DNA of 64,000 bases. It comes from Pseudotabrizicola formosa. GTDB taxonomy: Bacteria > Pseudomonadota > Alphaproteobacteria > Rhodobacterales > Rhodobacteraceae. The position numbers and the translations under genes are program-made. The stretch covers positions 62,001 through 126,000 of the forward strand of contig NZ_PJOM01000003.1 in NCBI RefSeq assembly GCF_002900965.1. The letters are read 5' to 3'. The notes under the pieces were generated by a model, which had not been told where the DNA came from, did no database searches, and saw nothing but the letters and a program-made list of their open reading frames with translations. Shown piece by piece: positions 8,308 to 37,618 of the stretch. The first letter of the stretch is position 1; each line of letters starts with the position of its first letter.

Positions 8308-8389
8308 ACCGGCCTCCTGTTGTTTGCGACAACATAGGCGAGGCCGCTGGTCGTGCAAAGGCGCACCCCCGCACGGCAGCTGTGCGCGT

Positions 8390-18464: not shown

Positions 18465-18768
18465 GAAATGGCACGCTCCTGAAAAGCGCAGCGCGGGGGC
18501 TGCCTGCCGCACATCAGACCTGCACCCAAGCAAGCCGCGATGGTTTGGTTTGTCTGCACCAGTGCAAGGCACGGATGTGTCCTGCAACCGTTTCAAACGC
18601 GCCGGACCCCCGTCCAGTTCCCCTGATGACTAGCAGATTGTCTTCCGAAATGAAAGGCTTTGCCCCTGGTCCGGCCCCTTTGGCTTTCCCCGTTTCCCCG
18701 CCTTTGGGGCATGGTCTTTGGCCGGGGTGGGCTTTAGGCTTGGCGGGCAGAAAACGGGGGTCGCGGGG
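18465..18768. other. Divergent intergenic region of the polysaccharide locus
   Basis: This 304-base region between the leftward kinase gene and the rightward glycosyltransferase gene should carry both promoters. I see no convincing sigma-70 pair and no gene. The sequence CACCAGTGCAAGG and TTGTCTTCCGAAATGAAAGG patches are the only AT-richer stretches. Confidence 0.45.
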
Positions 18769-19719: not shown

Positions 19720-20475
19720 TGCGGCCCGTCCGCGCTGGCGCAGCGCGGCCACCACCTGACCGGGCAGAATGGCGATACAGGCCAGATAGCGCGGGATCAG
19801 CCGGCGTGGCGCAGACATCACCCGCCACAACCATTCCAGCGCCAGCTTGCGCATCCAGCGCGGGGCGCGGGTCTGCTGGCCCGCCACAAAATCAAGGCCG
19901 GCGCCAAAGCCGCAAAACCCTATGGCGGGGGCGATGCTGCGGCCAAAGGCGGCGAAGGCTTCCTGTCGCGGTGCCGAGAGCGAGATGATGCACAGCCGCG
20001 CCCCGGTGGCCTGCATCCCGGTCAGGGCGGCCAGCGCTTCCGCTCCGTTGGGGTCAAACCCCATGACCGGGGCACCGGACCACACCACCCGAAGGCCCGG
20101 CATCTCGGCGTTCAGGTTCAGGGCGGCCTGCGCCAGGACCGTGGGGGTAGAGCCGTAGAAGGCCACCGGAACGGCATCCTGCGCCGCCATTTGCAACAGC
20201 GGGCGCAGCAGGTCAGATCCGGGCACCAGCGTCACCGGGCAGCGGGCAAGATGGGACAGCCAGACGATCGGATTGCCATCGGCCACGATTAGATCCTGCG
20301 CCGCATAGACCTGCCGGTAACTGGCCGAGGCCCGCAGTTTCACCAGGTGATCAAGGTTGAGGGTGGCCAGGCTAAAGCCCCTGCCGGCCTGCAGCCGTGT
20401 CCGGACCTCGGCCAGAAGGCAGGTCTGGTCGGGCATGTTCACGGTGATGACCTGGTCAGGAAACTGAAACCGCAC
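19600..20475 (-). CDS. WecG/TagA/CpsF-family glycosyltransferase
   Basis: The protein of 291 residues has the family signature: FSLATLNLDHLVKLR, the catalytic-Asp motif IVADGNPIVWLSHL, GSDLLRPLL and LSAPRQEAF with GFCGFGAGLDFVAG. Members transfer ManNAc, ManNAcA or Glc onto lipid-linked intermediates in polysaccharide synthesis. The last about 40 residues (after residue 250) are Pro/Gln-rich, not conserved, and encoded inside the neighbouring GT2 gene on the other strand. The functional enzyme probably ends near residue 245. Confidence 0.87.
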   Translation of the reverse strand: MRFQFPDQVITVNMPDQTCLLAEVRTRLQAGRGFSLATLNLDHLVKLRASASYRQVYAAQDLIVADGNPIVWLSHLARCPVTLVPGSDLLRPLLQMAAQDAVPVAFYGSTPTVLAQAALNLNAEMPGLRVVWSGAPVMGFDPNGAEALAALTGMQATGARLCIISLSAPRQEAFAAFGRSIAPAIGFCGFGAGLDFVAGQQTRAPRWMRKLALEWLWRVMSAPRRLIPRYLACIAILPGQVVAALRQRGRAASLVLDQAAPPAPEPVQMKAQRTLRLGEAPHHDQHPPGPA

Positions 20476-22012: not shown

Positions 22013-22216
22013 GGTCTTTGCCCTTTCCACAGCGCAGATGGCTGCAAGGCTTTGCGGTATAGAGCAGGATGCCGCACAAGGCCACCTGCCACGCCGCCCG
22101 TGCCGCTTTGCCCTGTCCCTGCCGCATTCAAGGCACGCTCGTGCCGCGAAGCCTTGCAAGACAGGCCATCCGTTCCGTGCTATCGCGGCCGGCGCACAGC
22201 AGATACCCAGACACAG

Positions 22217-23626
22217 ATGCCCATTGCAAACACGCTTGCCTATCTGATGCTGGCCCTGTGGCCAGTGGTGTCGTGGACCCTGTTCACGAAACTTGATCCG
22301 GCACGCGCGCTGATCTGGACGGTGCTGGGCGCCTATATGCTGCTGCCGCCGGTCGTGGCCCTTGATCTGCCGGTGGTGCCGGGCATCGACAAGGATGCGG
22401 TGGCCGGTCTGGCCGCCGTGCTGGCGGTGCTTTTCCTGTTGCGGCACAGGTTTGGCCTGCTGCCGGTGTCCCGGCTGGGGCGCGGGCTGATCCTGCTTTA
22501 CGTTCTCAGCCCCTTTGCCACCGTGCTGACCAATGACGACCCGATCTGGTTTCAGGCCATGTCCCTGCCGGCACTGCGGATCTATGACAGCGTGGCGGTG
22601 GTGGCCAATCAGGCCATCGCGCTGGTGCCGTTCTTTCTGGCGCGCCACTATCTGGCAAGCGAAGAGGCGATGCGGGCCCTGCTGGTGGCCCTCGTGATGG
22701 CCGGGCTGCTGTATTCCCTGCCGATGCTCTATGAGGCGCGGATGTCGCCCCAGCTCAACCTGATGATCTACGGGTTTTTTCAGCATGATTTCAGTCAGGC
22801 CATCCGCTTTGGTGGCTATCGGCCCTTCGTGTTTATGCCCCATGGGCTGTGGGTCGCCTTCTTTGCGATGATGTGCTGCGTCGCCGCGGTGACGCTGCTG
22901 CGGGTGGGGCCTGCGGCCTGTCGGCCGAAATACCTGCTTGCCGCGATCTATCTCTTGGTCGTGCTTGTCCTGTGCCGCAGTGCCGGGCCGGTCCTCTATG
23001 CGCTGCTGCTCGCCCCCATGGTGCTGATCCTGCCCCGGCGGGTGCAGATCCTGTGCGCAGGGATGATGGCGGCTGTGGTGATCAGCTATCCGCTGCTGCG
23101 CGGGTTGCACCTGGTGCCGGTGCAGGACATCCTGTCCATCGCCAGCGCGATGAATGCCGAGCGCGGGGCCTCCCTGGCCTTCCGCATCGCCAATGAAGAG
23201 CTGCTGCTGGAACGCGCCGCCGAACGTCCGTGGTTTGGCTGGGGCCTCTACGGGCGCGGCCTGCTGCATGACCCGGTGACCGGACAGATCAATGTCATCG
23301 CCGATGGCGGCTGGATCATCACGCTGGGCACCTTTGGCTGGGCCGGCTATGTGGCCGAATTCGGCCTGCTTGCCCTGCCCATCGCGCTCATGTCGCGCGA
23401 GGCCCTGCGCCAGCCCGCCGCCATGCTGTCGCCCTTTGCCGCGGCGGTGGTGCTGATCCTTGCCGTCAATCTGGTGGATCTTCTGCCCAATGACACGCTG
23501 ATCCCCTTCACCTGGCTGATGGCGGGCGCGGTGCTGGGCCATGCCGAAGCCTTGCGCAGCGCGTGGAAAGCCGCGCGCCGTCAGGCAAAGGACCATGCCC
23601 TGCCGCCCGGGCGCACCGTGATATGA
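22217..23626 (+). CDS. O-antigen polymerase/ligase-like membrane protein
   Basis: The protein of 469 residues is strongly hydrophobic with about ten predicted membrane spans. A larger periplasmic loop before the final spans carries FRIANEELLLERAAERPWFGWG, resembling the Wzy/WaaL (O-antigen ligase) family motif 'RP-x-G-x-G'. The likely role is polymerisation or transfer of lipid-linked polysaccharide repeats on the periplasmic side. The ATG at 22217 was selected because hydrophobic homology starts there; the longer frame to 21944 is spurious. It overlaps the next glycosyltransferase gene by ATGA. Confidence 0.85.
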   Translation: MPIANTLAYLMLALWPVVSWTLFTKLDPARALIWTVLGAYMLLPPVVALDLPVVPGIDKDAVAGLAAVLAVLFLLRHRFGLLPVSRLGRGLILLYVLSPFATVLTNDDPIWFQAMSLPALRIYDSVAVVANQAIALVPFFLARHYLASEEAMRALLVALVMAGLLYSLPMLYEARMSPQLNLMIYGFFQHDFSQAIRFGGYRPFVFMPHGLWVAFFAMMCCVAAVTLLRVGPAACRPKYLLAAIYLLVVLVLCRSAGPVLYALLLAPMVLILPRRVQILCAGMMAAVVISYPLLRGLHLVPVQDILSIASAMNAERGASLAFRIANEELLLERAAERPWFGWGLYGRGLLHDPVTGQINVIADGGWIITLGTFGWAGYVAEFGLLALPIALMSREALRQPAAMLSPFAAAVVLILAVNLVDLLPNDTLIPFTWLMAGAVLGHAEALRSAWKAARRQAKDHALPPGRTVI

Positions 23627-24921
23627 CCGCCCCGCCGCGCGCCACCCCTCGTGTCCTGCTGCTGGCCGAAGCCGCCAACCCCGAATGGGTGTCCGTGCCG
23701 CTGGTCGGCTGGTCGCTTGCTCGTGCGCTGGCCCGGGTGGCCGATGTGCATCTTGTCACCCAGGTGCGCAACCGCGATGCCATCCTGCGCGCCGGTCTGC
23801 GCGAAGGGGTGGAGTTCACCGCGATTGACTCCGAGGCCCTTGCGCGCCCGCTGTGGAAACTGGGCACAGCCCTGACCGGCGGGCGCGGCGGCTGGACGAT
23901 CCAGCAGGCGGTGGCGACTCTCAGCTATCCCTATTTCGAACGTCTGGTCTGGCAGCGCTTTGGCGCCGCCATCCGCGCCGGACAGTATGATGTGGTGCAC
24001 CGGATCACGCCGCTCTCGCCCGTGCAGCAAAGCCTGATCGCCGCGAAATGCCGCCGTGCGGGCGTGCCCTTCGTGCTGGGGCCGATCAACGGCGGGGTGC
24101 CCTGGCCTGCGGGGTTTCAGGCCGAAATGGCGCGCGAACGCGAATGGCTGTCACAGGTGCGGGGCCTCTACCGCGCCTTGCCGGGCCGGCGGGCCACCCT
24201 GCGCGCCGATGCCATCCTTGCCGGATCGCGCCAGACCGCGCGCGAGATTCCTGCGGCGCATCAGGGTCGGGTGATCTATCTGCCCGAAAACGCGGTGGAC
24301 CCGGCGCGGTTCAATGCCGCGGCCCGCCACCACGCGCCCGGCCCGATGCGCGCCTGTTTCATCGGCCGTCTGGTGCCGCTGAAAGGGGTCGATATGCTGA
24401 TCGCGGCGGCAGCCCCCCTGCTGCGCAGCGGCAGGCTGGTCCTCGACATCATCGGCGACGGCGACCAGATGCCCCCGTTGCGGGCGCAGGCCGCCGCCTT
24501 CGGGGACAGCGTGATCTTTCACGGCTGGCAGGACCATGCACAGGTGCAGCACATCGCGGCGCGCTGCCAGCTCTTGGCCTTTCCGTCGATCCGTGAATTC
24601 GGCGGCGGCGTGGTGCTGGAGGCGATGGCGCTGGGCCTTGCCCCCATCGTGGTCGATTACGCAGGCCCCGCCGAGTTGGTGACAGATACGACCGGCTGGA
24701 AGGTCCCGATCACCGGGCGGGCCGGGGTTATTGCCGGGCTGGCCGCGCAGCTGGCCTATTGCGTTGATCATCCCGATGAGGTGGCGCAACAGGGCGAGGC
24801 TGCGCGCGCGCGGGTGCAGGCGCTGTTCACATGGGACCGCAAGGCCGCGCAGATCCTTTCGGTCTACCGCTGGGTGCAAGACCCGTCCTTGCCAAAGCCC
24901 GCACCCTTCGGGCCGGGCTGA
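23623..24921 (+). CDS. Family-4 glycosyltransferase
   Basis: The protein of 432 residues has a GT-B fold: the N-terminal VLLLAEAANPEWVSVPLVGW resembles sugar acceptor domains, and the C-terminal domain carries FIGRLVPLKGVDMLIAAAA and the donor-site FPSIREFGGGVVLEAMALGL (E-x7-E). Translation is coupled to the polymerase gene through ATGA. The next gene, the PKS, starts 108 bases later on the same strand, so this gene may link the polysaccharide genes to the PKS/NRPS block. Confidence 0.92.
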   Translation: MTAPPRATPRVLLLAEAANPEWVSVPLVGWSLARALARVADVHLVTQVRNRDAILRAGLREGVEFTAIDSEALARPLWKLGTALTGGRGGWTIQQAVATLSYPYFERLVWQRFGAAIRAGQYDVVHRITPLSPVQQSLIAAKCRRAGVPFVLGPINGGVPWPAGFQAEMAREREWLSQVRGLYRALPGRRATLRADAILAGSRQTAREIPAAHQGRVIYLPENAVDPARFNAAARHHAPGPMRACFIGRLVPLKGVDMLIAAAAPLLRSGRLVLDIIGDGDQMPPLRAQAAAFGDSVIFHGWQDHAQVQHIAARCQLLAFPSIREFGGGVVLEAMALGLAPIVVDYAGPAELVTDTTGWKVPITGRAGVIAGLAAQLAYCVDHPDEVAQQGEAARARVQALFTWDRKAAQILSVYRWVQDPSLPKPAPFGPG

Positions 24922-25029: not shown

Positions 25030-28000
25030 ATGCCCGAACGTCCTTCGCCTGCCGATCTGTCCGACACCGACATCGCCATTGTCGGCATGGCCGCACATCT
25101 GCCCGGTGCCGAAGACATTGGCACCTATTGGCGCAATCTGCGCGCCGGGGTGGGCGCGATCCGGGTGCTGGACGAGGCGGCCCTGCTGGCAGCCGGGGAA
25201 TCCGCGGCCCGGATGGCGCGACCCAATTACGTGGCCGCCGCCGCCGTGCTGGACAGGTTCGAGCAGTTTGATGCCGAATTCTTTGGCTTCTCTCCCAAAG
25301 AGGCCGCCATCCTCGATCCCCAGCACCGCCAGTTCCTTGAGGTGGCATGGGAGGCGCTGGAAAACGCGGGCCACCCGCCGGAAAGCTTCCCCGGCCCCAT
25401 CGGCGTCTGGGCGGGCTGTGGCATGGGGTCGTATTTCTATTTCAACCTGTGCTCGCACCGCGATCTGGTGGAGGAGACCGGCCTGTTTCTGCTGCGCCAT
25501 ACCGGCAATGACAAGGATTTCCTGGCCACCCGCGTCAGCCATATCCTTGATCTGAAGGGGCCAAGCATCAGCGTGCAGACCGCCTGCTCCACCAGCCTCG
25601 TGGCGGTGCATTACGCAGCACAGGCGCTCTTGAACGGCGAATGCGACATGGCGCTTGCGGGCGGGGTCACCATCGAACTGCCCCATGCGCGCGGCTATCT
25701 CTACACCGAAGGCGAGATCCTGTCGCCTGACGGCCAGTGCCACGCCTTCGATCACCGCGCCGAAGGCACCGTCTTTGGCTCGGGCGCGGGCTGCGTGGTG
25801 CTGCGCCGGGCAAAAGAGGCCCTGCGCGACGGTGATCATATCTGGGCAATCCTCAAGGGCTCGGCGGTCAACAACGATGGCGCCGGCAAGGCGGGCTATC
25901 TGGCTCCGTCGGTTGACGGCCAGGCCCGCTGCATCGCCGAGGCGCAGGCGGTGGCCGGGGTCACGGCGGACTCTGTCAGCTATGTCGAATGCCACGGCAC
26001 CGGCACCTATCTGGGCGACCCGATCGAGGTGGCGGCCCTGACCGCCGCCTTCCGCGAAACCACCGATGCGGTGGGCACCTGCCGCATCGGCAGCGTGAAA
26101 ACCAATATCGGCCATCTGGATACGGCCGCGGGCGTGGCCAGCCTGATCAAGGTGGCCCTCGCCCTGCACCACCGCGAACTGCCGCCCTCTCTGGGCTACG
26201 AGGCCCCGAACCCCGCGATTGACTTTGAAACCTCCCCCTTCCGCGTCAATGACCGGCTGACCGCCTGGGACGCGCCCATCCTGCGCGCCGGGGTGAACAG
26301 CCTGGGCGTCGGCGGCACCAATGCCCATGCGGTGCTGGAACAGGCCCCGCCGCGCCCGGCATCGGGGCAAAGCGACTGGCCGTTTCAGCCCCTTGTCCTC
26401 TCGGCCCGCAGCAAGGCCGCGCTTGATGCCGCCTCCACGCGCCTTGCCACCCACTTGCGCGCCAACCCCGGCCAGCCGCTTGCCGATGTGGCCTTCACCC
26501 TGAAAGACGGCCGCCGCGGCTTTGACAAACGCCGCGTGCTGGTGGCCAGCAGCCATGCCGAAGCCGCCGATCTTCTCGAAACCAACGATCCCCGCCGCGT
26601 CTTTACCCATGACCATCTGGGCGATGACCCGCAGGTGATCTTCATGTTCCCCGGCGGCGGCGCGCAATATGCCGGCATGGCGCGCGATCTGTATGAAACC
26701 GAACCGGTCTTTGCCGACTGGATGGACCGCGGCCTTGCCGTGCTGGAGCCCAGGCTCGACTACGATATCCGCGCGCTCTGGCTGCCTGCCAAAGGCGCAG
26801 AGCCGGCGGCAGATGCCGCCCTCAAGCGCCCCTCGGTGCAGCTGCCACTGATCATGATCACCGAATACGCGCTGGCCAAGCTCTTCGAGTCCTGGGGTGT
26901 CACGCCCACCGCGCTCGTCGGCCATTCGATGGGCGAAAACACCGCCGCCGCACTTGCCGGGGTGATGAGTTTCGAAGATTGCATCGGCCTCGTGCACCTG
27001 CGCGGCACCTTGTTCGACACCATCGCGCCGGGCGGCATGCTCTCCGTCCCGCTGTCCGAACCCGAACTGCGCAAGGCGCTAGATGACGCTGGTCATTTTC
27101 AGTCTGACACCATCCCGGGGGTCGCCAAGGGTGCGCCTTTGGTTCAAGCGCCACTGGCAACGGGGCTGGCCCCCGCTTCCACATCGCCGCTGGACATCGC
27201 CTCGGTCAATGCGCCCGACCTCTGCGTTGTTTCCGGCCCCGACAGCGCCCTCGCCGACCTTGCCGCCAGACTGACCGCCCAAGGCATCGAGACCCGTCGC
27301 ATCGCCATCGACATCGCCGCCCATTCCGCAATGCTGGACCCGATCCTGGCGCAATTCGGCGATTATCTCCGGTCTATCCGGCTGTCACCCCCAACCCTGC
27401 CCATCCTCTCCAACCGCACCGGCCGTGAGCTTACCCCGCAGCAGGCCACCGACCCCGACTATTGGGTGCAGCACCTGCGCGGCACGGTGAACTTCCGCGC
27501 CTGCATGGAGTGGCTCAAGGCAGAACCGGCGCGGGTCTATATGGAAATGGGGCCGGGCCGGGCGCTGTCGTCGCTGGCCCAGGCCAATGGCGTGCCTTCG
27601 GGTCAGGTTATCCCGGCCCTGCGCCACCCCGATCACCCCATGGCAGATGACGCCTGGCACATGGTCACGCTGGCCCGGCTCTGGGCCTGCGGCGTGGCGG
27701 TGGACTGGGGGCAGATCTGGGGCGACGCCCCTCGCCAGCGTGTGCCGCTGCCCGGCTATGCCTTTCAGCGCAAACCCTATTTCATCGCCCCGGCAGAGGG
27801 GCAGGCGGCCGCAACAGAGGCCCCGCCCGCCCGCATCGCCGATCTGGCCAACTGGGGCTACATGCCCCATTGGCACCCCAAGGCGGCAGGGTTCGATCTG
27901 GATGACCTGTCGCTCACCCCGCCAGAGACCTGGCTGATCTTCCTTGATGACACCGGCCTGTGCGCCACCGTGGCCGACCGGCTGGTACAGGCCGGGCACC

Positions 28001-31000
28001 GGGTGGTGCGGGTGCGCGCGGGCGATGCCTTTGCCCGCGACGCACAGGGCGATTACCGCCTGTCGCCGGAACGCGGCCGCGAAGGCTATGACAGCCTGAT
28101 CCGCGATCTGGTGGCGCGCGGGCTGGCCCCGTCCCGCATCCTGCATGGCTGGCTGGTGACGGGCCGCGAAACCTTCCGTCCCGGCTCCAGTTTCCTGCAC
28201 CGCAACATCGAACAGGGCTTTTACGCCCTGATGTTCCTCTGCCAGGCGCTGACGGAGGAAAACCTGCCCCGGCCGATCCGCCTGACGGTGCTGACCACCG
28301 GGGCGGCACAGGTGAAGGGCGAGGCCCTGGCCTATCCCGAAAAAGCCATGGTGCTTGGCCCCGCCCGCGTCATCCCGCGCGAACTGCCGGGGGTGCTGGT
28401 CGGCCTGCTGGATCTTGGCCCCGGCGATGCGGCAGATGTGGTGCTGGAAGAGGTGCTGTCCGATCAGCCCGCCATAGCCGCGTGGCGCAAGGGGCGCCGC
28501 TACGAAACCGGCGTCAGGGCGGTGCCCTTGCCCGAGGCCGGGGTTGATCTGCCGCAGGGCGCGCATGTCCTGATCACCGGCGGCTTTGGCGGCATCGGCC
28601 TGACCGTGGCCGAAACCCTGATCCGGCGCTTTGGCGTCAGGATCACCCTTGTCGCACGGCGCGCGCTGCCCGACCGAGCCACCTGGCCGGCGCTGCTTGC
28701 CAGGGTCGCCCCGGGTGATCCGCTGGCGCGGCGCATCCTCGCCCTGCAACGGCTTGAAGCCCTGGGCGCTCAGGTGCTGGTCGCCCAGGCCGATGTGGCC
28801 AATCTCGATGAGATGCGGGCGGCAAGGCAAGCGGGTGAGGCGCGCTTTGGCCCGGTCCATGCGGTGATCCATGCGGCGGGCGTGGTCGATGACGGCCCCA
28901 TGATGCTCAAGACCACCGCCGAGGTCGAAGAGGTCTTTGCCCCCAAGCTGCACGGAACCCAGGTGCTGGACCGCCTGTTCCCCGATGGCTCCATCGCCCT
29001 CTTGGTGCTGTTTTCCTCCACCTCCACCATCACCGGGCCTGCGGGGCAGATCGACTATGTGGCGGCGAATGAATATCTCAACGCCTATGCCAAACACCGG
29101 ACGGGCGGCAAGACCCGCGTCATCGCGCTGAACTGGGGCATCTGGCAGGGTGTCGGCATGGCCGCCGAGGCGCTCGCCGACCGCACCGGCACGCCCGACT
29201 CGCCGCGTGTGCCGATCAAGGCGCATTTGCTGGATGAGGCCGGGTTCGACCGCCACGGCAACCGGGTGTTTCACGCAACCTACGGGCTTGACCGCTGGGT
29301 GCTGGATCAGCACCGCCTCAAGGGGGGCACCGCCTTGATCCCCGGCACCGGCTATCTGGAACTGCTGGCCGAGGCATGGGCGGAGCAGGGCGAGACCGAC
29401 GCTTTCGAAATCCGCGATCTGACCTTCTTTCGCGCGCTCGATATCGGCGACACCCCCCGCCCGGTGCGGGCGCGGCTGCGCCGCAGTGACGAAGGCTACA
29501 CGGTTGATGTCCAGTCTGCCTTGCCGGTCAAGGGCCGGACAGGCTGGCTGCAGCATGCCTCTGCCCGCCTCCTGCCCTTGGCCGAGGCTGCCCCTCGCCT
29601 CGATGTGGCCGCCCTTGCGGCCCGGTTGCCAAGGCCAGAGCTGGGGACGGGCCTGCCCAGCCCGCAAGAGGCGCATCTGGACTTTGGCCCGCGCTGGCGG
29701 GTGCTGACCTCCCGCACCATCGGCCGCGGCGAGGGGTTGGCGCATCTGGCCTTGCCCGATCCTTACCGGGCAGAGCCGGATCAGGGCTGGCACATCCACC
29801 CCGCCCTGATGGATCTGGCCACCGGCTGGGCCATGGGGCTGATCGACGGCTACCGTCCCGATCACCTCTGGGTGCCGGTCTCTTACAGCCGCGTCCGGGT
29901 CTATCGCCCGCTGCCCGCCCGTATTGTCAGCCATGTGCGCAACGCCGGGGCCAATCTGGCCGCGCGCGGAACGGCGGTGTTTGACGTGACGCTGGCGACG
30001 CCCGAAGGCGAGGTCTGCATCGAGGTGCAGGGCTTCACCATCCACCGGCTGGACGGCGGCCTGCGGCAGACGCCGCCCGACCCGCGCAGCCTTGAGCTTG
30101 ACGACCCGCAGCCCCGCGCCACGTCGCCCGCCGAAGACCGGCTGCTGCACGCCTTTTCGCAAGGCATCCGCCCGGCAGAAGGGGCCGAGGCTTTTGGTCG
30201 CGCGGTGGCGCTGGGCCACAGCCAGATCATCGTGTCCTCGCTCGACCTGGCCGCGCTGATCCGCGCCGCCGAGGTGCCAGACACGGCACCGACCGAAACC
30301 TCCCGTTTCGACCGCCCCGATCTGGACAGCGATTACGTTGAACCGCGCGGCGATATCGAACGCACCCTTGCAGGCTTCTGGCAGGATCTGCTGGGGGTGG
30401 CGCGGGTCGGTACCGGCGACAGTTTCTTTGACCTTGGCGGCCACAGCCTCATCGCGGTGCGGCTGTTTGCGATGATCAAGAAGGCCTATCGCACCGATTT
30501 CCCGATTTCGGTGCTGTTCGAGGCCCCCACCATCGCCGCCTGCGCCGCGCTGATCGAGGCGCAGATCGGCCCGCAGGAAGATCGGTCCACGCCCAGTGCA
30601 ACCCCCGGTGCCGGGCCCGCGCCGCGCCGCTTTACCCATATCGTGCCCATGCACAAGGGCGAGGCGCGCGCCGGGGGCGGGGCAAAGACACCCTTCTTCC
30701 TTGTCGCGGGCATGTTCGGCAATGTGCTGAACCTGCGCCATCTGGCGCAGCTTCTGGGCGGCGACCGGCCGTTCTATGGCTTGCAGGCCCGGGGACTTTA
30801 CGGTGAGGCGCAGCCGCATACCGATTTTGTCAGCGCCGCGCGCGACTACATCGCCGAAATGCGGCAGGTGCAACCCACCGGCCCCTACCTGCTGGGCGGG
30901 TTTTCAGGGGGCGGGCTGATCGCCTGGGAAATCGCCCGCCAGCTGGAAGCCTCGGGCGATCAGGTGCCGCTGCTGGTGCTGCTCGACACGCCGCTGCCGC

Positions 31001-31476
31001 TGCGCCCCGCCCTGAGCAAGCTGGACAGGCTGATCATCCGGCTGGCCGAGCTGCGGGCCGAAGGGCCTGCCTTCCTGGGCCGCTGGTGGCGCGAAAAACA
31101 GGCGTGGAAACAGGCGCAGCGCGCGGGGTCCAGCGACGAAGCCGCCCTGCACAATGGTGCCATCGAGGCCGCGTTCCGCGCCGCGCTGCCGCTCTATCAC
31201 ATGGCCCCGCGTCAGGGGGCCGTGGCCTTGTTCCGTCCACCGCTTGACAGGCGCTGGCAGGTGACCGGCGGGCGTTGGGTCAGTGCGGCGCGGGAATTTG
31301 TCCTGCCCGACAACGACCTTGCGCAATTCGCCCCGGCGCTGCAGGTGATCGAGGTGCCGGGCGATCATGACAGCATGGTGCTGGAACCGAATGTGCGCGT
31401 CCTCTCCGCCCGCCTGCGCGCCCTGATAGAGGCCGCCGAAACCACCGCCCCCGTTCTGGCGCAGGCGGCGGAATAA
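25030..31476 (+). CDS. Type I modular polyketide synthase (KS-AT-KR-DH-ACP-TE)
   Basis: The protein has 2148 residues. KS (about 12-440) has Cys186 in TACSTS, His322 in HGTGT and His362 in NIGH, so it can condense. AT (about 545-850) has Ser633 in GHSMGE and IAAHSAMLDPI in the substrate-selecting region, which is neither clear malonyl (HAFH) nor clear methylmalonyl (YASH). KR (about 1175-1375) has TGGFGGIG with Ser1330 and Tyr1343. DH (about 1420-1690) has His1428 and Asp1595. ACP has Ser1806 in GGHSL. TE has Ser1959 in GFSGG and His2113. KR before DH is reversed relative to the usual DH-KR order. It would extend one starter by one ketide, reduce, dehydrate and release it. The ATG at 25030 is used; the TTG at 25006 is less likely. 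The stop is 1 base before the GT2 start. Confidence 0.95.
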   Translation: MPERPSPADLSDTDIAIVGMAAHLPGAEDIGTYWRNLRAGVGAIRVLDEAALLAAGESAARMARPNYVAAAAVLDRFEQFDAEFFGFSPKEAAILDPQHRQFLEVAWEALENAGHPPESFPGPIGVWAGCGMGSYFYFNLCSHRDLVEETGLFLLRHTGNDKDFLATRVSHILDLKGPSISVQTACSTSLVAVHYAAQALLNGECDMALAGGVTIELPHARGYLYTEGEILSPDGQCHAFDHRAEGTVFGSGAGCVVLRRAKEALRDGDHIWAILKGSAVNNDGAGKAGYLAPSVDGQARCIAEAQAVAGVTADSVSYVECHGTGTYLGDPIEVAALTAAFRETTDAVGTCRIGSVKTNIGHLDTAAGVASLIKVALALHHRELPPSLGYEAPNPAIDFETSPFRVNDRLTAWDAPILRAGVNSLGVGGTNAHAVLEQAPPRPASGQSDWPFQPLVLSARSKAALDAASTRLATHLRANPGQPLADVAFTLKDGRRGFDKRRVLVASSHAEAADLLETNDPRRVFTHDHLGDDPQVIFMFPGGGAQYAGMARDLYETEPVFADWMDRGLAVLEPRLDYDIRALWLPAKGAEPAADAALKRPSVQLPLIMITEYALAKLFESWGVTPTALVGHSMGENTAAALAGVMSFEDCIGLVHLRGTLFDTIAPGGMLSVPLSEPELRKALDDAGHFQSDTIPGVAKGAPLVQAPLATGLAPASTSPLDIASVNAPDLCVVSGPDSALADLAARLTAQGIETRRIAIDIAAHSAMLDPILAQFGDYLRSIRLSPPTLPILSNRTGRELTPQQATDPDYWVQHLRGTVNFRACMEWLKAEPARVYMEMGPGRALSSLAQANGVPSGQVIPALRHPDHPMADDAWHMVTLARLWACGVAVDWGQIWGDAPRQRVPLPGYAFQRKPYFIAPAEGQAAATEAPPARIADLANWGYMPHWHPKAAGFDLDDLSLTPPETWLIFLDDTGLCATVADRLVQAGHRVVRVRAGDAFARDAQGDYRLSPERGREGYDSLIRDLVARGLAPSRILHGWLVTGRETFRPGSSFLHRNIEQGFYALMFLCQALTEENLPRPIRLTVLTTGAAQVKGEALAYPEKAMVLGPARVIPRELPGVLVGLLDLGPGDAADVVLEEVLSDQPAIAAWRKGRRYETGVRAVPLPEAGVDLPQGAHVLITGGFGGIGLTVAETLIRRFGVRITLVARRALPDRATWPALLARVAPGDPLARRILALQRLEALGAQVLVAQADVANLDEMRAARQAGEARFGPVHAVIHAAGVVDDGPMMLKTTAEVEEVFAPKLHGTQVLDRLFPDGSIALLVLFSSTSTITGPAGQIDYVAANEYLNAYAKHRTGGKTRVIALNWGIWQGVGMAAEALADRTGTPDSPRVPIKAHLLDEAGFDRHGNRVFHATYGLDRWVLDQHRLKGGTALIPGTGYLELLAEAWAEQGETDAFEIRDLTFFRALDIGDTPRPVRARLRRSDEGYTVDVQSALPVKGRTGWLQHASARLLPLAEAAPRLDVAALAARLPRPELGTGLPSPQEAHLDFGPRWRVLTSRTIGRGEGLAHLALPDPYRAEPDQGWHIHPALMDLATGWAMGLIDGYRPDHLWVPVSYSRVRVYRPLPARIVSHVRNAGANLAARGTAVFDVTLATPEGEVCIEVQGFTIHRLDGGLRQTPPDPRSLELDDPQPRATSPAEDRLLHAFSQGIRPAEGAEAFGRAVALGHSQIIVSSLDLAALIRAAEVPDTAPTETSRFDRPDLDSDYVEPRGDIERTLAGFWQDLLGVARVGTGDSFFDLGGHSLIAVRLFAMIKKAYRTDFPISVLFEAPTIAACAALIEAQIGPQEDRSTPSATPGAGPAPRRFTHIVPMHKGEARAGGGAKTPFFLVAGMFGNVLNLRHLAQLLGGDRPFYGLQARGLYGEAQPHTDFVSAARDYIAEMRQVQPTGPYLLGGFSGGGLIAWEIARQLEASGDQVPLLVLLDTPLPLRPALSKLDRLIIRLAELRAEGPAFLGRWWREKQAWKQAQRAGSSDEAALHNGAIEAAFRAALPLYHMAPRQGAVALFRPPLDRRWQVTGGRWVSAAREFVLPDNDLAQFAPALQVIEVPGDHDSMVLEPNVRVLSARLRALIEAAETTAPVLAQAAE

Positions 31477-31477
31477 C

Positions 31478-32476
31478 ATGGCCAGCGTGCTGACAGTGAT
31501 CCTGAACTGGCGGACGGCAGAGATGACCCTGCGCTCTGCCACCGCCGCGCTGCAGGCGATGCAGGGCATCGATGGCGCGCTGGTCATCGTTGACAACGAC
31601 TCCGGCGACGGCAGTTTCGAGCGCCTGACCGCCGAGGTGGCGGCGCGCGGCTGGGATCAGGGCCCGCATGGCGTGCGGGTGCTGCAATCGGGGCGCAATG
31701 GTGGCTTTGGCGCGGGCAACAATTTTGGCATCCGCGCCGGTCTGCCTGCAGGGCAACGCCCGGATTATGTCTACCTGCTCAACTCCGACGCCTTTCCCGA
31801 ACCGGGTGCCATCCGCGCCCTGCTGGCGCATCTGGAAACCCATCCCGCCACCGGCTTTGCCGGCAGCCATATCTGTGGCGAGGATGGTGCGCCGCATCAC
31901 ACCGCCTTCCGCTTTCCCTCCATCGCGGGCGAGTTTGAACAGGCCGCCCGTCTGGGCCCGATCACCCGCCTGCTGCGCGGGTCTGTGGTGGCTCCGCCCT
32001 TGCCGGTGGCATCCGGCCGGGTGGATTGGCTGGCCGGGGCCAGCCTGATGATGCGGCATAGGGTGCTGGACCGTATCGGCCTGTTTGACGAGACCTTCTT
32101 TTTGTATTTCGAGGAAACCGACCTCTGCCTGCGGGCCGCACGGGCCGGGTTTCCCACCGATTACGTTCTGGAAAGCCGGGTGGCCCATGTCGGATCGGTG
32201 TCGACCGGCATGAAGACCTGGCAGCGCATCCCGCGCTTCTGGCTCGAGTCGCGGATGTATTACTATACCAAGTCGCATGGCCGCGCCTATGCGCTGGCGG
32301 CGACGGCGGCGCATGTGGCGGGCGGGCTGATCTGGCGGTTGCGGGCGCTGGTCCAGCGCAGGCCGGTGCTCGATCCGCCGCATTACCTGCGCGACATGAC
32401 GGCCCATGCCATGCACTGGGCAATGTCCGGCTTCCGGCCGGTGACCAAGACCGCTGCGGCGGCAAGGAGAGTCTGA
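31478..32476 (+). CDS. Family-2 glycosyltransferase (rhamnosyltransferase-like)
   Basis: The protein of 332 residues has a GT-A fold: VLTVILNWRTAEMTLRSA, VIVDNDSGDGS, GGFGAGNNFGIRAG and the DxD motif LLNSDAFPEPG, then WLAGASLMMRH and DETFFLYFEETDLCLRA. This matches dTDP-rhamnose-type transferases of the GT2 family. The gene is wedged between the PKS (1 base) and the NRPS gene (TGATG overlap), so all three are almost certainly one transcript. The placement suggests that it glycosylates the PKS/NRPS product or attaches it to the local polysaccharide. Confidence 0.92.
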   Translation: MASVLTVILNWRTAEMTLRSATAALQAMQGIDGALVIVDNDSGDGSFERLTAEVAARGWDQGPHGVRVLQSGRNGGFGAGNNFGIRAGLPAGQRPDYVYLLNSDAFPEPGAIRALLAHLETHPATGFAGSHICGEDGAPHHTAFRFPSIAGEFEQAARLGPITRLLRGSVVAPPLPVASGRVDWLAGASLMMRHRVLDRIGLFDETFFLYFEETDLCLRAARAGFPTDYVLESRVAHVGSVSTGMKTWQRIPRFWLESRMYYYTKSHGRAYALAATAAHVAGGLIWRLRALVQRRPVLDPPHYLRDMTAHAMHWAMSGFRPVTKTAAAARRV

Positions 32477-35400
32477 TGGGTCTGACAGCGCTTCTGATCG
32501 GCAATGAAAGCCTGACGCAGGCCTGCGGTGCCGCATGGCTGGCGCGCGGGCACCGGCTGGCGGCGGTGGTGACGCGCCAGCCAGACCTGCGCGCCTGGGC
32601 CATGGCGCAGGGCCTGCGGGTGGAACCCCCCGGGGCGGGGCTGGACCAGCGGCTGGCAGGGCTGACCTGCGACTGGCTCTTGTCGGTCGCCAACCTGTCA
32701 CTGGTGCCAGCGGCGGTGCGGGCCATGGCCACGCAAGGCGCGGTGAATTTTCATGACGGACCCTTGCCGCGCTATGCCGGCCTCAATGCCCCGGTCTGGG
32801 CGCTGCTGGCGGGCGAACGGCAGCATGGCATCACCTGGCACCTGATGACCGATGGCGTCGATCAGGGCGACATTCTGGAGCAGCGCCTGTTTGACCTGCA
32901 CCCGGCAGAAACCGCGCTGACCCTGAACTCCCGCTGTTTCGAGGCGGGCCTCGACAGCTTTCCGGCGCTGATGGCCCAGCTGGAAACCGGGCTGCGCCCG
33001 GTGCCGCAGGATTTTACCCAGCGGCAGGTCTTTGCCCGCGCCGACAGGCCCGCCGCCTTTGGGCATCTGGATTTTTCGCACCCTGCCGAAGCCGTCGCGC
33101 GCAGGGTGCGGGCGCTGGACCATGGCCGCAGCTGGAACCCTCTGACCACGGCCAAGATCGCCAGCACCTTTGGGGTGCTGAACGTGGGGGCGGCAGATGT
33201 GGTGCAGGGTGCGGGCGCGCCAGGCGCGGTGCTGTCCAGCTCTCCCCAAGGGGTGGTGGTGGCTTGTGCGCAGGGCGCAGTCCGGTTGCACCGGCTCAGT
33301 TGCCAGAGGCGCGGATTGCCGGTCTGCCCGTCCACGGTGACCGATATGTCCCCGCCGCCCGATGCAGAGGCGCTGACGGCGGCGCTTGCGGCTCTGGTGC
33401 CGTTCGAGCCTGCGATCCGCAAGCGGCTGGCGACGCTGTCGCCACTGGTGGTGGCAGGCGCTGGCGCTGGCACGGGCGCGGCTCAGGGCGCGGGGGACGG
33501 CTGGCTGCGGCTGGCGGTGGCAGGCGACGCCGCCACGCTGGCGGTGGCCATGGCGCGGGTATCGGGACAGGCCAGCCCCGATGTGGCGCTTTCGGTCGCG
33601 CCGGGCCTGGCGGGCTACAGCAGCGGCTGGGTGCCGGTGCGGGTGGCAACAGATGGGACGGTCGCTGCCGCGCGGGCGGTTGTATTGGCCGAACGCGCAC
33701 CGGGTTTCGCGCTCGACCTGATGACGCGCGATGCCGCGCTCTCCGGTCTGGCGATGCCGCAGGTGGCGGTGTCTCTGCACGGCGCGCCGGTGGCGGGCAG
33801 TGTGATCACACTCTCCGACGGTGCGCTGCAGGCCGATCTGTCACAGCTGTCTGAGGCCGAGGCGCGGGCGCTGGCCGAGCGTCTGTCCTTTGTCATCGGG
33901 GCCGCCACAGAGGCCGCGCGCGTCGCCGATCTGCCCATTCTATCTGCGCACGAACGGCGTGCTGTTTTATCCGACGTGAACCATACGTTTGCCATACGTG
34001 AAACATACTGTGTGCATCAGGCCTTCGAGGCGCAGGCGCAGCGCACACCCGATGCCCCGGCGATCAGTTTTGAAGCGCTGGACCTGACCTATGCCCAGCT
34101 GAACGCGCGGGCCAATCGGGTGGCCAATGTGCTGCGCGATATGGGCGTGGGGCCGGGGGTGCTGGTCGGCCTGCACCTGCGCCGCAGCGCTGATATGCTG
34201 GTGGGCGCGCTGGCCATTCTGAAGGCCGGAGGGGCCTATGTGCCGATGGACCCGGCCTATCCCGCTGAAAGAACAGCACTTTTCATCGAAGATTCCGCCT
34301 GCCCGGTGATCGTGACCAGCAGTCATCTGGCAGGCGCGCTGCCGAAACAACTGGCGGCGCTGTGTCTGGACAGCGATGAACGGATCGCCGGGGCCTCTGA
34401 CGCAAACCCCACATCTGGTGTCACGCCGGGCGATCTGGCCTATATGATCTATACATCCGGCTCCACCGGACGTCCGAAGGGCGTGATGGTCGAACATCGG
34501 AATGTTGTGAACTTTTTCAAAGGGATGGACAATCGTATCGGCACCGATCCGGGCGTGTGGCTGGCCGTCACCTCCATGTCCTTCGACATCTCGGTGCTAG
34601 AGCTGTTCTGGACCCTGGCCCGTGGCTTCAAGGTGGTGATCTCATCCGATGAAAACCGGACACTGATGTCTTCCGGGCGGATCAGATCCGAAAAAAATAT
34701 ATATTTTTCATTGTATTACTGGGGCAATGATGATGGGGCTGGCGCCAGTAAATACCAGCTGCTGCTGGACGGGGCACGGTTTGCCGATGCCCATGGCTTT
34801 GTCGCGGTCTGGACGCCGGAACGACATTTCCACGCCTTTGGCGGGCCCTACCCGAACCCGTCCGTCACCGGCGCTGCGGTGGCGGCGGTCACCAGAAACA
34901 TCGGCGTGCGGGCCGGGTCTTGCGTGGTGCCATTGCATCATCCCGCGCGGATTGCCGAGGAATGGGCGGTGATCGACAACCTGACAAATGGCAAGGCGGG
35001 CATGGCGATTGCCAGCGGCTGGCAGCCGGAAGACTTTGTGCTGCGCCCGGAAAACACGCCTCCAAACAACAAGTTAGCAATGTACGCCGCTGCCGATCAG
35101 GTCCGCCGTCTGTGGCGTGGTGAGGCGGTGGATTTCCCCAAGGCGGATGGAACGATGGTCCCGGTCGTCACTCAACCCCGCCCTGTGTCGCGCGAATTGC
35201 CCCTGTGGGTGACCACCGCAGGCAACCCCGCCACCTGGCGCGAGGCGGGCGAGATGGGGGCGAATGTGCTGACGCACCTGCTGGGCCAATCACTGGAAGA
35301 GGTTGCAGGCAAGATCCGCCTCTACCGCGAGGCGCGCGCCAAGGCCGGGCATGACCCCGACAGCGGTGTGGTCACCCTGATGCTGCATACCTATCTCGGA

Positions 35401-36996
35401 CAAGACCGCGCCGAGGCGCGCCGCGTGGCGGAAGCGCCGATGAAGGCCTATCTTGCGTCAGCGGTCGGCTTGGTGAAGCAATATGCCTGGGCCTTCCCGG
35501 CATTCAAGAAGCCGCAGGGGGTATCCGACCCCATGGACATTGACCTGCGCAGCCTAAGTGCCGAAGAACACGAGGCTATTCTTGATTTCGCCTTTCAGCG
35601 CTATTTTGAAGACTCTGGCCTGTTCGGAACGGTTGATGATGCGCTGGCCCGGGTGGAGCAGCTCAAGCACATCGGTGTGGGCGAGGTCGCCTGTCTGATC
35701 GATTACGGCATTGCGCCCGATCAGGTGATGGCGGGGCTGGTTCCGTTGGCCGAGGTGGTGCGGCGGGCGAATGCCGGCGGCGGTGTCGAGGCGGATGATT
35801 ACGCGATTGCGGCGCAACTGATCCGGCACCGGGTGACGCATCTGCAATGCACCCCCAGCATGGCGCGGATGATGGCCATGAATGACGACTCGCGCGCTGC
35901 CTTGGCAGGTGTAAAGACGATGATGATCGGGGGTGAGCCGCTGCCCGGTGCGTTGGTGCAAGATCTGCGCGCGGCATCCGGCGCGCGCATCCTGAACATG
36001 TATGGGCCGACCGAAACCACGATCTGGTCGTCGGTGGAGGAGGTCGGCGCGGTCGAACCGGTGTCGAACATCGGCACGCCGCTGGCCAATCAGCAGATGT
36101 ATGTGCTGGATGAGACGATGGAGCCGGTGCCGGTAGGCACGGCAGGGGAGCTGTGGATCGGGGGGGATGGCGTCACGCGTGGCTATTGGCAGCGGGACGA
36201 TCTGACGGCAGAGCGCTTTGTGGCGGATCCGTTCGTCAGCCCGGATCGGGCTTGTCCCTGGGGCGCGCGGATGTATCGCACGGGCGATCTGGTCCGCCGG
36301 CGGGCGGATGGTAAGATCGATTTCCTGGGCCGCACCGACCATCAGGTCAAGCTGCGCGGCTACCGGATTGAACTGGGCGAGATCGAGGCCGTGCTGGAGG
36401 CACAGCCGGGGGTGCGCCAGGCTGTGGTGATGGCGCGCGAGGACAGTCCAGGCGATTTGCGGTTGGTGGGCTATGTCACCGGGGCGGCGCAGGAAAGCGG
36501 CCTGCGGGCGGCGCTGGCAGCGGCCTTGCCCGAGCATATGGTTCCTGCCCATATCGTGACGCTTGAGGCATTTCCGCTCACCCCCAACCGCAAGGTGGAC
36601 CGCAAGGCCTTGCCGGCACCGGGGGTGCGGGCTGAGCCAGCGGCATTTGTGGGTCCTGCGTCAGATATTGAGGCGCAGATCGCGGCGGTCTGGTCGCGGG
36701 TGCTTGGCGTCCCGAGGGTGGGGGCCAGGGACAACTTCTTTGCGCTGGGGGGGCATTCCTTGCTTGCGGTGCAGGCGCATCGCGAAATCCGTGCGGCCTT
36801 GGGAACCAGCAGGCTGTCGATCACCGATATCTTCCGCTTTCCGACGCTGTCGGATCTGGCGGCCCATCTGGAGGACAGCCCAAAGGCTGCAGGCGTTGCA
36901 CCGCCCACAGGGCTGGCGGCGCAGGCCGGGGCGCGGGCGGATGCCATGGCGCGCAGGCGTGCAATGCGGGCCGGGCGGGCTGGTGTGGATGCCTGA
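32476..36996 (+). CDS. NRPS: formyltransferase - A domain with inserted luciferase-like monooxygenase - PCP
   Basis: The protein has 1506 residues. Residues 1 to about 290 are a formyltransferase domain with the catalytic triad Asn91, His93 (VNFHDGPLP) and Asp129 (DGVDQGD). Residues about 290-505 are a linker with no HHxxxDG condensation motif. The A domain (about 505-1385) is split after A4 (FDIS, Asp704) and before A5 (MYGPTE) by an FMN-dependent luciferase-like monooxygenase of the MupA/Atu3671 type (about 740-1090). The specificity residues read by eye, D-I-L-Q-M-G-M-I-W-K, match glycine-activating codes. The PCP has Ser1428 in GGHSL. There is no C or TE domain, so it looks like a loading module passing formyl-glycine, perhaps oxidised, to the PKS. 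A very AT-rich patch marks the insertion edge. Confidence 0.94.
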   Translation: MGLTALLIGNESLTQACGAAWLARGHRLAAVVTRQPDLRAWAMAQGLRVEPPGAGLDQRLAGLTCDWLLSVANLSLVPAAVRAMATQGAVNFHDGPLPRYAGLNAPVWALLAGERQHGITWHLMTDGVDQGDILEQRLFDLHPAETALTLNSRCFEAGLDSFPALMAQLETGLRPVPQDFTQRQVFARADRPAAFGHLDFSHPAEAVARRVRALDHGRSWNPLTTAKIASTFGVLNVGAADVVQGAGAPGAVLSSSPQGVVVACAQGAVRLHRLSCQRRGLPVCPSTVTDMSPPPDAEALTAALAALVPFEPAIRKRLATLSPLVVAGAGAGTGAAQGAGDGWLRLAVAGDAATLAVAMARVSGQASPDVALSVAPGLAGYSSGWVPVRVATDGTVAAARAVVLAERAPGFALDLMTRDAALSGLAMPQVAVSLHGAPVAGSVITLSDGALQADLSQLSEAEARALAERLSFVIGAATEAARVADLPILSAHERRAVLSDVNHTFAIRETYCVHQAFEAQAQRTPDAPAISFEALDLTYAQLNARANRVANVLRDMGVGPGVLVGLHLRRSADMLVGALAILKAGGAYVPMDPAYPAERTALFIEDSACPVIVTSSHLAGALPKQLAALCLDSDERIAGASDANPTSGVTPGDLAYMIYTSGSTGRPKGVMVEHRNVVNFFKGMDNRIGTDPGVWLAVTSMSFDISVLELFWTLARGFKVVISSDENRTLMSSGRIRSEKNIYFSLYYWGNDDGAGASKYQLLLDGARFADAHGFVAVWTPERHFHAFGGPYPNPSVTGAAVAAVTRNIGVRAGSCVVPLHHPARIAEEWAVIDNLTNGKAGMAIASGWQPEDFVLRPENTPPNNKLAMYAAADQVRRLWRGEAVDFPKADGTMVPVVTQPRPVSRELPLWVTTAGNPATWREAGEMGANVLTHLLGQSLEEVAGKIRLYREARAKAGHDPDSGVVTLMLHTYLGQDRAEARRVAEAPMKAYLASAVGLVKQYAWAFPAFKKPQGVSDPMDIDLRSLSAEEHEAILDFAFQRYFEDSGLFGTVDDALARVEQLKHIGVGEVACLIDYGIAPDQVMAGLVPLAEVVRRANAGGGVEADDYAIAAQLIRHRVTHLQCTPSMARMMAMNDDSRAALAGVKTMMIGGEPLPGALVQDLRAASGARILNMYGPTETTIWSSVEEVGAVEPVSNIGTPLANQQMYVLDETMEPVPVGTAGELWIGGDGVTRGYWQRDDLTAERFVADPFVSPDRACPWGARMYRTGDLVRRRADGKIDFLGRTDHQVKLRGYRIELGEIEAVLEAQPGVRQAVVMAREDSPGDLRLVGYVTGAAQESGLRAALAAALPEHMVPAHIVTLEAFPLTPNRKVDRKALPAPGVRAEPAAFVGPASDIEAQIAAVWSRVLGVPRVGARDNFFALGGHSLLAVQAHREIRAALGTSRLSITDIFRFPTLSDLAAHLEDSPKAAGVAPPTGLAAQAGARADAMARRRAMRAGRAGVDA

Positions 36997-37618
36997 TGCA
37001 GGGCTGCTGGCGGCGCTGCGGGCCATCGCGCCCGTGGGGGCGGGGATTGCCTGGACAGATCCGCGTGCCGATCATCCGCTGATGCAGGGCGAGGGTTTGC
37101 CAGCGGCGGTGCCCCTGCGGCAGCGCGAATTTGCGGCGGGTCGGGCGGCAGTTCGCAGCGCCATGAGGCAGATCGGCCTTGCGCCGGAGGTCATTGCGCA
37201 GGGCGCGGATCGTGCGCCCGTCTGGCCCGCGGGACTGGTGGGGTCAATCACCCATACCCGGCGGCACTGTCTGGCAGTGGTGATGCCGGGTGCCCTGTGC
37301 CGGGGGATCGGGATTGATCTGGAAGACGACACGCCGCTGGAGCCCGAACTGATGGATGATATCCTGCGACCCGAAGAACGGCTGGGGATCACCGGGGGTC
37401 AGGCCAAGGCCGTGTTCTGCGCCAAGGAATCCGCGTTCAAGGCGCAATACTTGGTCAGCCGCAGGGTTTATGGCTTTGAGGGGATGAGAATAGAGATGGA
37501 GGCGGATCGTTTTGTGGCGGTGTTCACCCAGAGTGTGCCGCCCTTTGCCATCGGCGACCGGATTGCCGGGCGCATCCTGCGGGTGGGGGGCCATGTGCTG
37601 ACGCTGGCCGCTCTTTGA
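36989..37618 (+). CDS. 4'-phosphopantetheinyl transferase (Sfp/EntD type)
   Basis: The protein has 209 residues. The diagnostic motifs are GIGIDLEDD (metal/CoA-binding Asp and Glu) and VFCAKESAFKAQY (the (F/W)-x-x-KE-x-x-x-K box), with GSITHTRRHC upstream as in EntD. It moves phosphopantetheine from CoA to the carrier-protein serines, here PKS Ser1806 and NRPS Ser1428. The ATG at 36989 overlaps the NRPS stop by 8 bases, a strong sign of a dedicated partner enzyme in the same transcript. The longer open frame from 36563 is antiframe noise within the NRPS gene. Confidence 0.95.
   Translation: MPDAGLLAALRAIAPVGAGIAWTDPRADHPLMQGEGLPAAVPLRQREFAAGRAAVRSAMRQIGLAPEVIAQGADRAPVWPAGLVGSITHTRRHCLAVVMPGALCRGIGIDLEDDTPLEPELMDDILRPEERLGITGGQAKAVFCAKESAFKAQYLVSRRVYGFEGMRIEMEADRFVAVFTQSVPPFAIGDRIAGRILRVGGHVLTLAAL

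Follow-up and report, generated by a model that had tools for sequence, protein, structure and literature searches.

Introduction

The pathway to solanimycin B contains a glycine adenylation (A) domain with a built-in flavin monooxygenase that is credited with forming alpha-hydroxyglycine, and A domains of the same type are described as hydroxylating the glycyl unit of myxothiazol and melithiazol, with cleavage to an amide (PMC10204066). A formylating glycine start that feeds a polyketide synthase (PKS) has been proposed for conglobatin (PMC4504003), MupA is reported to hydroxylate a carrier-bound (acyl carrier protein, ACP) chain at the alpha position in vitro (PMC10952193), and the type I PKS genes wcbR and rkpA are placed in capsular polysaccharide clusters (PMC3908369). 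Here we analyze a 64,000-nucleotide stretch of the Pseudotabrizicola formosa genome (the window; G000:C8:62001-126000 of a 3.7-Mb genome in 14 contigs) in which four tightly packed genes – the block – encode a type I PKS, a family 2 glycosyltransferase (GT2), a non-ribosomal peptide synthetase (NRPS) and a phosphopantetheinyl transferase (PPTase). We propose that the PKS and NRPS form a two-protein line making one fixed small acyl unit for an exopolysaccharide, rather than a variable secondary metabolite, a reading to which we assign a probability of roughly 0.55.

MtaG and MelG carry glycine A domains with an embedded monooxygenase, and OzmO is a formylating initiation module. Like those of the SolF/MtaG/MelG type, the A domain of the block NRPS is split by a monooxygenase and has what we take to be a glycine-type code; unlike them – they extend or end a chain with a condensation (C) domain – the block NRPS has a formyltransferase (FT) followed by half a C domain, and no thioesterase (TE). 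The A domain is predicted to work like the SolF/MtaG type, and the module, on its modelled fold, falls outside the elongating and terminal module types. With the formylating initiation modules LgrA, CongA and OzmO it shares the order FT, A, peptidyl carrier protein (PCP) and an N-terminal FT with an intact triad; it differs from them in the monooxygenase insert, in the half C domain of about 200 residues between FT and A, and in feeding, as we propose, one PKS module with a TE. This combination suggests that the NRPS works like a starter, as a variant of the FT-A-PCP initiation type.

RkpA and WcbR are alike to the block PKS by locus setting, as type I PKS genes inside a surface-polysaccharide locus, whereas the block has an NRPS partner and none is mentioned for RkpA or WcbR in the part of PMC3908369 that treats them. 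MupA and PuwE are luciferase-like monooxygenases, and the MupA/Atu3671 family name (TIGR04020) is shared with the block insert; both are described as separate proteins (PuwE as a 362-aa chain), whereas the block monooxygenase lies inside an A domain. Among the matches listed in a search of the open-access literature (closed journals, preprints and MIBiG lay outside it), no paper deals with this gene set or ties such a set to polysaccharide. Within that scope the individual parts and the capsule-cluster type I PKS are known; new is a formylating, oxidising glycine-type module together with a PKS as a constant part of exopolysaccharide loci.

Architecture of the NRPS and PKS

Conservation of residues was counted over 92 NRPS and 78 PKS rows, NRPSs shorter than 1400 aa and PKSs shorter than 1800 aa having been dropped; one genome region is counted twice, as L049 and L097. 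The choice of catalytic residues presumably holds for these proteins as for the families from which it is taken. The FT domain matches the fold of ArnA and Met-tRNA formyltransferase (best Z 26.8), and N91, H93 and D129, which we take to be its triad, are found in 91 of 92 rows, the other being gapped. NRPS residues 296-508 gave no Pfam match; because a fold search with residues 1-520 covered only the FT (1-294), this segment was predicted and searched alone. Each of the 12 Foldseek matches of the resulting AF2 model (pLDDT 86.7) at E<=0.001 is to a chain with a C or X domain, and the top structural alignment (7c1r; Z 12.7, rmsd 3.4, 185 aligned) falls on chain residues 179-431, the C-terminal lobe. 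The half C domain, at about residues 296-490, is thus predicted to consist of the C-terminal lobe only. HHxxxD is absent from this stretch in ten of ten aligned NRPSs and occurs nowhere in nine of them; the tenth has one match, at residue 186, within the FT. The formyltransferase occupies the place of the condensation N-terminal lobe with its HHxxxDG, and since that lobe is replaced, the domain would not be expected to carry out the usual condensation reaction; the module should instead be chain-initiating.

The monooxygenase comprises residues 744-1094, between the A-domain motifs FDISVLELF (from 703) and NMYGPTE (from 1174). It scores 476.5 bits against TIGR04020 (cut-off 244.45), and among solved chains PuwE (6ket, E 5.7e-100) is nearest to it in sequence. 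No other part of the NRPS is as conserved: identity to the window averages 73% (91 rows), compared to 63-69% for the A parts and PCP, 51% for the FT (90 rows) and 33% for the region after the FT (91 rows). The ten-residue A code reads DILQMGMIWK in the window and DILQ-x-GM-(I/V)-WK across the 92 rows, two of them gapped at the last place. We take this to be a DhbF-type glycine code, and on that basis the A domain looks glycine-type; in PDB searches with both A-domain parts the alignments shown were all to LgrA chains, and the second A domain of LgrA differs at several code places. The PCP serine is present in 89 of 92 rows, with three gaps.

In the PKS, the Cys/His/His of the ketosynthase (KS), the acyltransferase (AT) serine, the Tyr/Asn and Ser1330 of the ketoreductase (KR), the His/Asp of the dehydratase (DH) and the ACP serine occur in all 78 rows, and the Ser/His/Asp of the TE in 77, the remaining row being gapped. 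A Pfam scan gave no enoyl-reductase match. The initial annotation, which regarded the catalytic sites of both proteins as intact, is borne out across the alignments: the residues checked are invariant save for gaps. Distances between PKSs and between NRPSs correlate (r = 0.94, 78 rows), a high value that shared ancestry alone would also give.

Conservation and inheritance

Read directly from the sequence, the PKS stop (TAA, 31474-31476) is separated by one base from the GT2 ATG (31478), GT2 and NRPS overlap by one base in TGATG (32474-32478), and the PPTase ATG (36989) precedes the NRPS stop (36994-36996), an overlap of 8 bases. The tight packing first noted for the four genes is therefore accurate. 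In 20-kb stretches from 14 relatives, PKS, GT2 and NRPS are adjacent and in the same order without exception, GT2 being 54-88% identical to the ten aligned; the PPTase comes next after the NRPS in 12, and was not found in L045 and L050. A search for lesions in close relatives found PKS, GT2 and NRPS open in all nine same-genus 20-kb loci. Among the 14 relatives only the block of G024 is broken (L051, G024:C3:513500-533400), where the PKS lies in several frames and the NRPS in two, through sequencing errors or decay.

An NRPS match at E<=1e-80 is present in 15 of 16 genus genomes, that of P. formosa included. Ten matches are near full length and five are in pieces in fragmented bins (G008-G010, G012 and G013, with partial copies, those of G009 and G013 containing one stop apiece). 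In G003, the genus member without the NRPS, two 20-kb stretches were read that contain WecG-, Wzz- and CpsD-type matches and no PKS or NRPS match. A decaying cluster was rejected in view of the open frames and of dN/dS values of 0.13-0.32 across the four block genes, measured against four congeners and highest for the PPTase. Intact residues, purifying selection and presence throughout most of the genus thus agree with the view of a live pathway.

A wider set of named loci comprised the best 80 of 364 relatives confirmed loosely (E<=1e-3), from at least 593 pattern matches; 72 of the 80 span at least 15 kb, and taxon labels of bins are the submitters' own. As classed by script, the order is PKS-GT2-NRPS in 47 (43 with PPTase), PKS-NRPS in 10 (8 with PPTase), divergent in 9 (8 with PPTase), NRPS-PKS in 4 and other in 2, with no PKS in the stretch in 8 (2 with PPTase). 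The counts are the script's: L076, L088, L094 and L121 were classed as PKS-NRPS and L056 as other despite a GT2 in between, and divergent means only that the PKS lies upstream on the other strand, with other genes between in L100. Of the eight loci without a PKS call, three show PKS fragments (L070, L112, L117), two are shorter than 8 kb (L130, L131) and three are stretches of 18-25 kb without a PKS (L092, L105, L127). The order NRPS-PKS occurs in bins labelled Deltaproteobacteria, Planctomycetaceae, Gemmatimonadetes and Rhodobacter (L115, L120, L122, L123), and in the Hyphomicrobiales loci, as in some of those from Rhodobacterales, PKS and NRPS have no GT2 between them. The core is PKS plus NRPS; GT2 and PPTase are not constant partners.

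In a FastTree phylogeny of the NRPS, Rhodobacterales and Hyphomicrobiales each occupy one side of a branch, a topology consistent with ancient, largely vertical inheritance. All nine divergent loci fall among the 12 Hyphomicrobiales rows, and the genus group stands beside two Cypionkella rows and a Rhodobacteraceae bin (fork support 87). In a Phaeobacter bin (L091), PKS, GT2, an NRPS split over two frames and PPTase follow one another; these may correspond to the PKS Inhi_1972 and the NRPS _1974 named in the genome paper on P. inhibens T5.

Association with polysaccharide loci

Six families – flippase (Wzx), polymerase (Wzy), Wzz, kinase, WecG and initiating transferase – were represented by hidden Markov models (HMMs) made from recurrent neighbours. 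At least one of the six is present in 14 of 14 close relatives, 64 of the 72 named loci of at least 15 kb, all four plasmid loci and none of 20 control stretches, a contrast that is inflated, since the HMMs were trained on the same loci, and whose controls were hand-chosen from P. formosa and the 14 relative genomes, not from the named genomes. Two or more families occur in 60 of the 72, with Wzx in 37, Wzy in 36, Wzz in 44 and a Bac_transf-type initiating transferase in 20. One control has a match to a gt4a-type glycosyltransferase, a family outside the six. As an independent check, whole genomes were searched with the Pfam WecG model; of the 15 that carry a near full-length NRPS, 11 have a match no more than 13 kb from it.

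The linkage extends across genera and two orders. Pfam matches among the Devosia neighbours are an initiating sugar transferase, an outer-membrane channel, WecG, a GH9 hydrolase, Wzy_C, Poly_export and a Wzz-kinase. Annotated plasmids of Ruegeria, Aminobacter, Shinella and Paracoccus each carry a flippase and glycosyltransferases within 15 kb; an initiating sugar transferase is found on those of Ruegeria, Shinella and Paracoccus, and the Aminobacter plasmid has an O-antigen ligase and a polysaccharide exporter instead. The window itself holds Wzz, a CpsD-like ATPase (a role assigned because of the neighbouring Wzz), WecG and a Wzy_C match that is weak, at 22.5 bits against a cut-off of 31.7; a gene of the last kind lies near the block in 10 of 14 relatives, and the family 4 glycosyltransferase (GT4) upstream of the PKS lies beside it in 8 of 14. 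A four-gene secondary-metabolite block, as initially described, is thus too narrow a frame: the neighbourhood is that of an exopolysaccharide locus.

Proposed pathway and alternatives

Because the NRPS lacks a complete C domain and a TE, the TE lies on the PKS and the FT is N-terminal, the NRPS is expected to load and the PKS to extend once and release. We propose that the PPTase would prime both carriers and that the A domain would load glycine on the PCP. The FT would N-formylate the glycyl unit and the embedded FMN monooxygenase would oxidise it, probably at the alpha carbon; the formylated, oxidised unit would pass from the NRPS to the KS and be extended once by a malonyl-type unit. Reduction by the KR and dehydration by the DH would leave a 4-formamido-2-butenoyl-type C4 chain that the oxidation would have hydroxylated or rearranged. 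The PKS TE would then either hydrolyse this acyl unit off or hand it directly to a sugar, and the neighbouring glycosyltransferases and Wzx/Wzy/Wzz-type proteins would build and export a polysaccharide carrying it. An N-formylated amino-acid-derived polyketide fragment, the product suggested by the initial annotation, is still the best reading of the domains, but the monooxygenase that splits the A domain had been overlooked, as had the half condensation domain.

Besides the limits of the control contrast, several points weigh against this pathway. The pathway is deduced from genes rather than from a product or a mutant. WecG lies 53 kb off in G015 and on another contig in G002, G006 and G007 (4 of the 15 genomes). 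Eight of the 72 named loci have none of the six families (L065, L075, L092, L120, L122, L123, L127, L128); two of these (L092, L127) also have no PKS in the stretch covered, and L105, with Wzz- and CpsD-type matches, has none in 24 kb. Among the eight, L120 does have a GT4, and in L122 there are a GT2, polysaccharide deacetylases and UDP-glucose dehydrogenase. No flippase was found among the window open reading frames scanned, and no acyltransferase for attachment was identified in the window. NRPS relatives outside the group (47% and 45% identity) stand in loci of another kind. Finally, alpha-hydroxyglycine that bears an acyl group can decompose, for which myxothiazol is a precedent (PMC10204066), and a glyoxylyl starter could therefore take the place of a formylglycyl one.

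If the TE simply hydrolyses its substrate, the product could be a free small metabolite – a signal, metallophore or antibiotic – and the polysaccharide neighbourhood a matter of co-regulation or chance. The same monooxygenase family does occur in other PKS/NRPS clusters: an Agrobacterium plasmid has a separate MupA/Atu3671-family gene among NRPS and PKS genes, outside the pattern of the block, and in Aliiroseovarius the 47%-identical NRPS has a large NRPS/PKS next to it, and the gene table, which is incomplete, lists no gene for polysaccharide assembly within 15 kb. However, diversifying metabolite clusters vary, unlike the block, in which residues and code are fixed save for one open code position and an I/V swap. 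With polysaccharide genes in 64 of 72 named loci and 0 of 20 controls, and the NRPS in 15 of 16 genus genomes, we regard a free metabolite as unlikely, if still a serious contender. The polysaccharide might instead be built on the product, as a starter or lipid-like anchor, reportedly one idea for RkpA-type PKSs in capsule clusters. The position of wcbR and rkpA in such clusters (PMC3908369) favors this, but the block PKS has KR and DH with no enoyl-reductase match, and an NRPS partner; a single extension would give a short polar unit and not a lipid, unless the PKS iterates, and the Bac_transf-type initiating transferase of 20 of the 72 loci represents the usual polyprenyl route. An anchor role therefore appears rather improbable.

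A further possibility follows the myxothiazol route, for which an A domain of the same kind with an embedded monooxygenase is described (PMC10204066, PMC9396620): the NRPS would add glycine to a PKS-made chain, and the monooxygenase would cleave it, leaving a terminal amide. The NRPS, however, has neither the HHxxxDG half of a C domain nor a TE, the TE being on the PKS, and an N-terminal formyltransferase would be without a role at a terminal module, which makes such an arrangement very unlikely. Attachment of a single glycine-derived acyl unit to the polysaccharide is the reading we prefer. A 316-aa family without Pfam or NCBIfam match is present in 25 loci and not in the window (in L114, at 16409-17356 (+), directly after the PPTase); it is a candidate for the missing transfer step.

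Other features of the window and related loci

The features of the block and its neighbourhood are collected in Table 1. The PPTase had been thought dedicated to the block, but PF01648 has two matches in the genome, the block PPTase and a 144-aa frame of AcpS size, and the genome encodes a second NRPS; the label should be dropped, and the block PPTase may also serve that second enzyme. The second NRPS (L161:5395-9321 (-), at about 231-237 kb of G000:C7; 1308 aa) matches the MxcG and EntF models across C-A-PCP. It overlaps by 4 bases a MOP-flippase-like gene (L161:9318-10748 (-), below the curated cut-off), and a galactose-1-epimerase and a taurine/nitrate-like ABC transporter adjoin it. Judged by similar matches, frames of 1324-1426 aa appear to resemble it in 14 of 16 genus genomes, that of P. 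formosa included.

Table 1. Block genes, their domains and neighbouring polysaccharide-type genes, in window coordinates
Feature	Position	Strand	Basis and remarks
Type I PKS	25030..31476	+	2148 aa; Pfam
PKS KS domain	25066-26343	+	Pfam
PKS AT domain	26638-27585	+	Pfam; extent from NCBIfam
PKS KR domain	28564-29148	+	Pfam
PKS DH domain	29254-30057	+	Pfam
PKS ACP domain	30364-30555	+	Pfam
PKS TE domain	from 30697	+	Pfam
GT2	31478..32476	+	332 aa; Pfam
NRPS: FT, half C, A (with monooxygenase insert), PCP; no TE	32476..36996	+	1506 aa; Pfam/NCBIfam
NRPS FT domain	32476..33357	+	Pfam; fold match ArnA, Met-tRNA formyltransferase
NRPS predicted C domain C-terminal lobe, without N-terminal lobe or HHxxxDG	33361..33945	+	AF2, Foldseek
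NRPS A domain, first part, to motif A4 FDISVLELF	34018..34674	+	Pfam, PDB sequence matches
NRPS FMN luciferase-like monooxygenase insert, MupA/Atu3671 family	34705..35757	+	NCBIfam TIGR04020
NRPS A domain, second part, from motif A5 NMYGPTE	35797..36615	+	Pfam
NRPS PCP, Ser1428	36676..36870	+	Pfam
Sfp/EntD-type PPTase	36989..37618	+	209 aa; Pfam 4PPT_N, ACPS
GT4	23623..24921	+	Pfam; 108 bases upstream of PKS
Wzy/O-antigen-ligase-like membrane protein	22214..23626 (start approximate)	+	Pfam Wzy_C 1.1e-4
WecG/TagA/CpsF glycosyltransferase	19600..20475	-	Pfam
Family 2 glycosyltransferase	18718..19719	+	Pfam on 18769-19719
CpsD-like P-loop ATPase	17529..18596	-	Pfam ParA/CbiA
Wzz-like chain-length determinant	16188..17525	-	Pfam
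Family 4 glycosyltransferase	14898..16121	-	Pfam

Between the WecG and Wzy-like genes lies a BLUF blue-light sensor (20920-21381, +), which adjoins the Wzy-like gene in L038 too. The window also has a stand-alone luciferase-like monooxygenase (7261-8562, -) that belongs to TIGR03858 (Atu2307/SP_0267) and not to the TIGR04020 of the insert. Promoter and terminator scans gave no evidence of either, with 3 promoter-like sites against 1.7 (sd 1.3) in shuffles and 8 terminator-like sites against 7.4 (sd 2.8). Elsewhere, GH9 genes – perhaps for polymer-trimming enzymes – are present in Devosia (L096:17500-20232, -) and Aminobacter (L135:21142-23784, -). The VPLPA-CTERM exosortase gene xrtD lies about 15 kb or less from the NRPS on the Ruegeria conchae (L134) and Aliiroseovarius (L139) plasmids, accompanied in L134 by dTDP-rhamnose genes. 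On a Streptomyces plasmid (L138, 10585-16379) a 45%-identical NRPS-type gene, with the same monooxygenase name, overlaps a flavin reductase gene near LysW/LysX-type genes; this is another pathway with the same monooxygenase domain.

Significance

Genome mining would file the block as one more orphan PKS-NRPS cluster. At even odds, in our estimate, a widespread class of exopolysaccharide bears a substituent derived from glycine and malonate and made by an invariant NRPS-PKS pair, with formylation and flavin oxidation, as normal surface chemistry in Rhodobacterales and Hyphomicrobiales. The block also offers a minimal two-protein system in which to study an A-domain-embedded monooxygenase and a half condensation domain. 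If the linkage to polysaccharide genes is functional, the acyl unit would belong to the surface matrix in many bacteria of the sea, soil and fresh water. Its chemistry would be fixed and open to testing, and it would constitute a non-sugar group on the polysaccharide that sugar analysis would miss.

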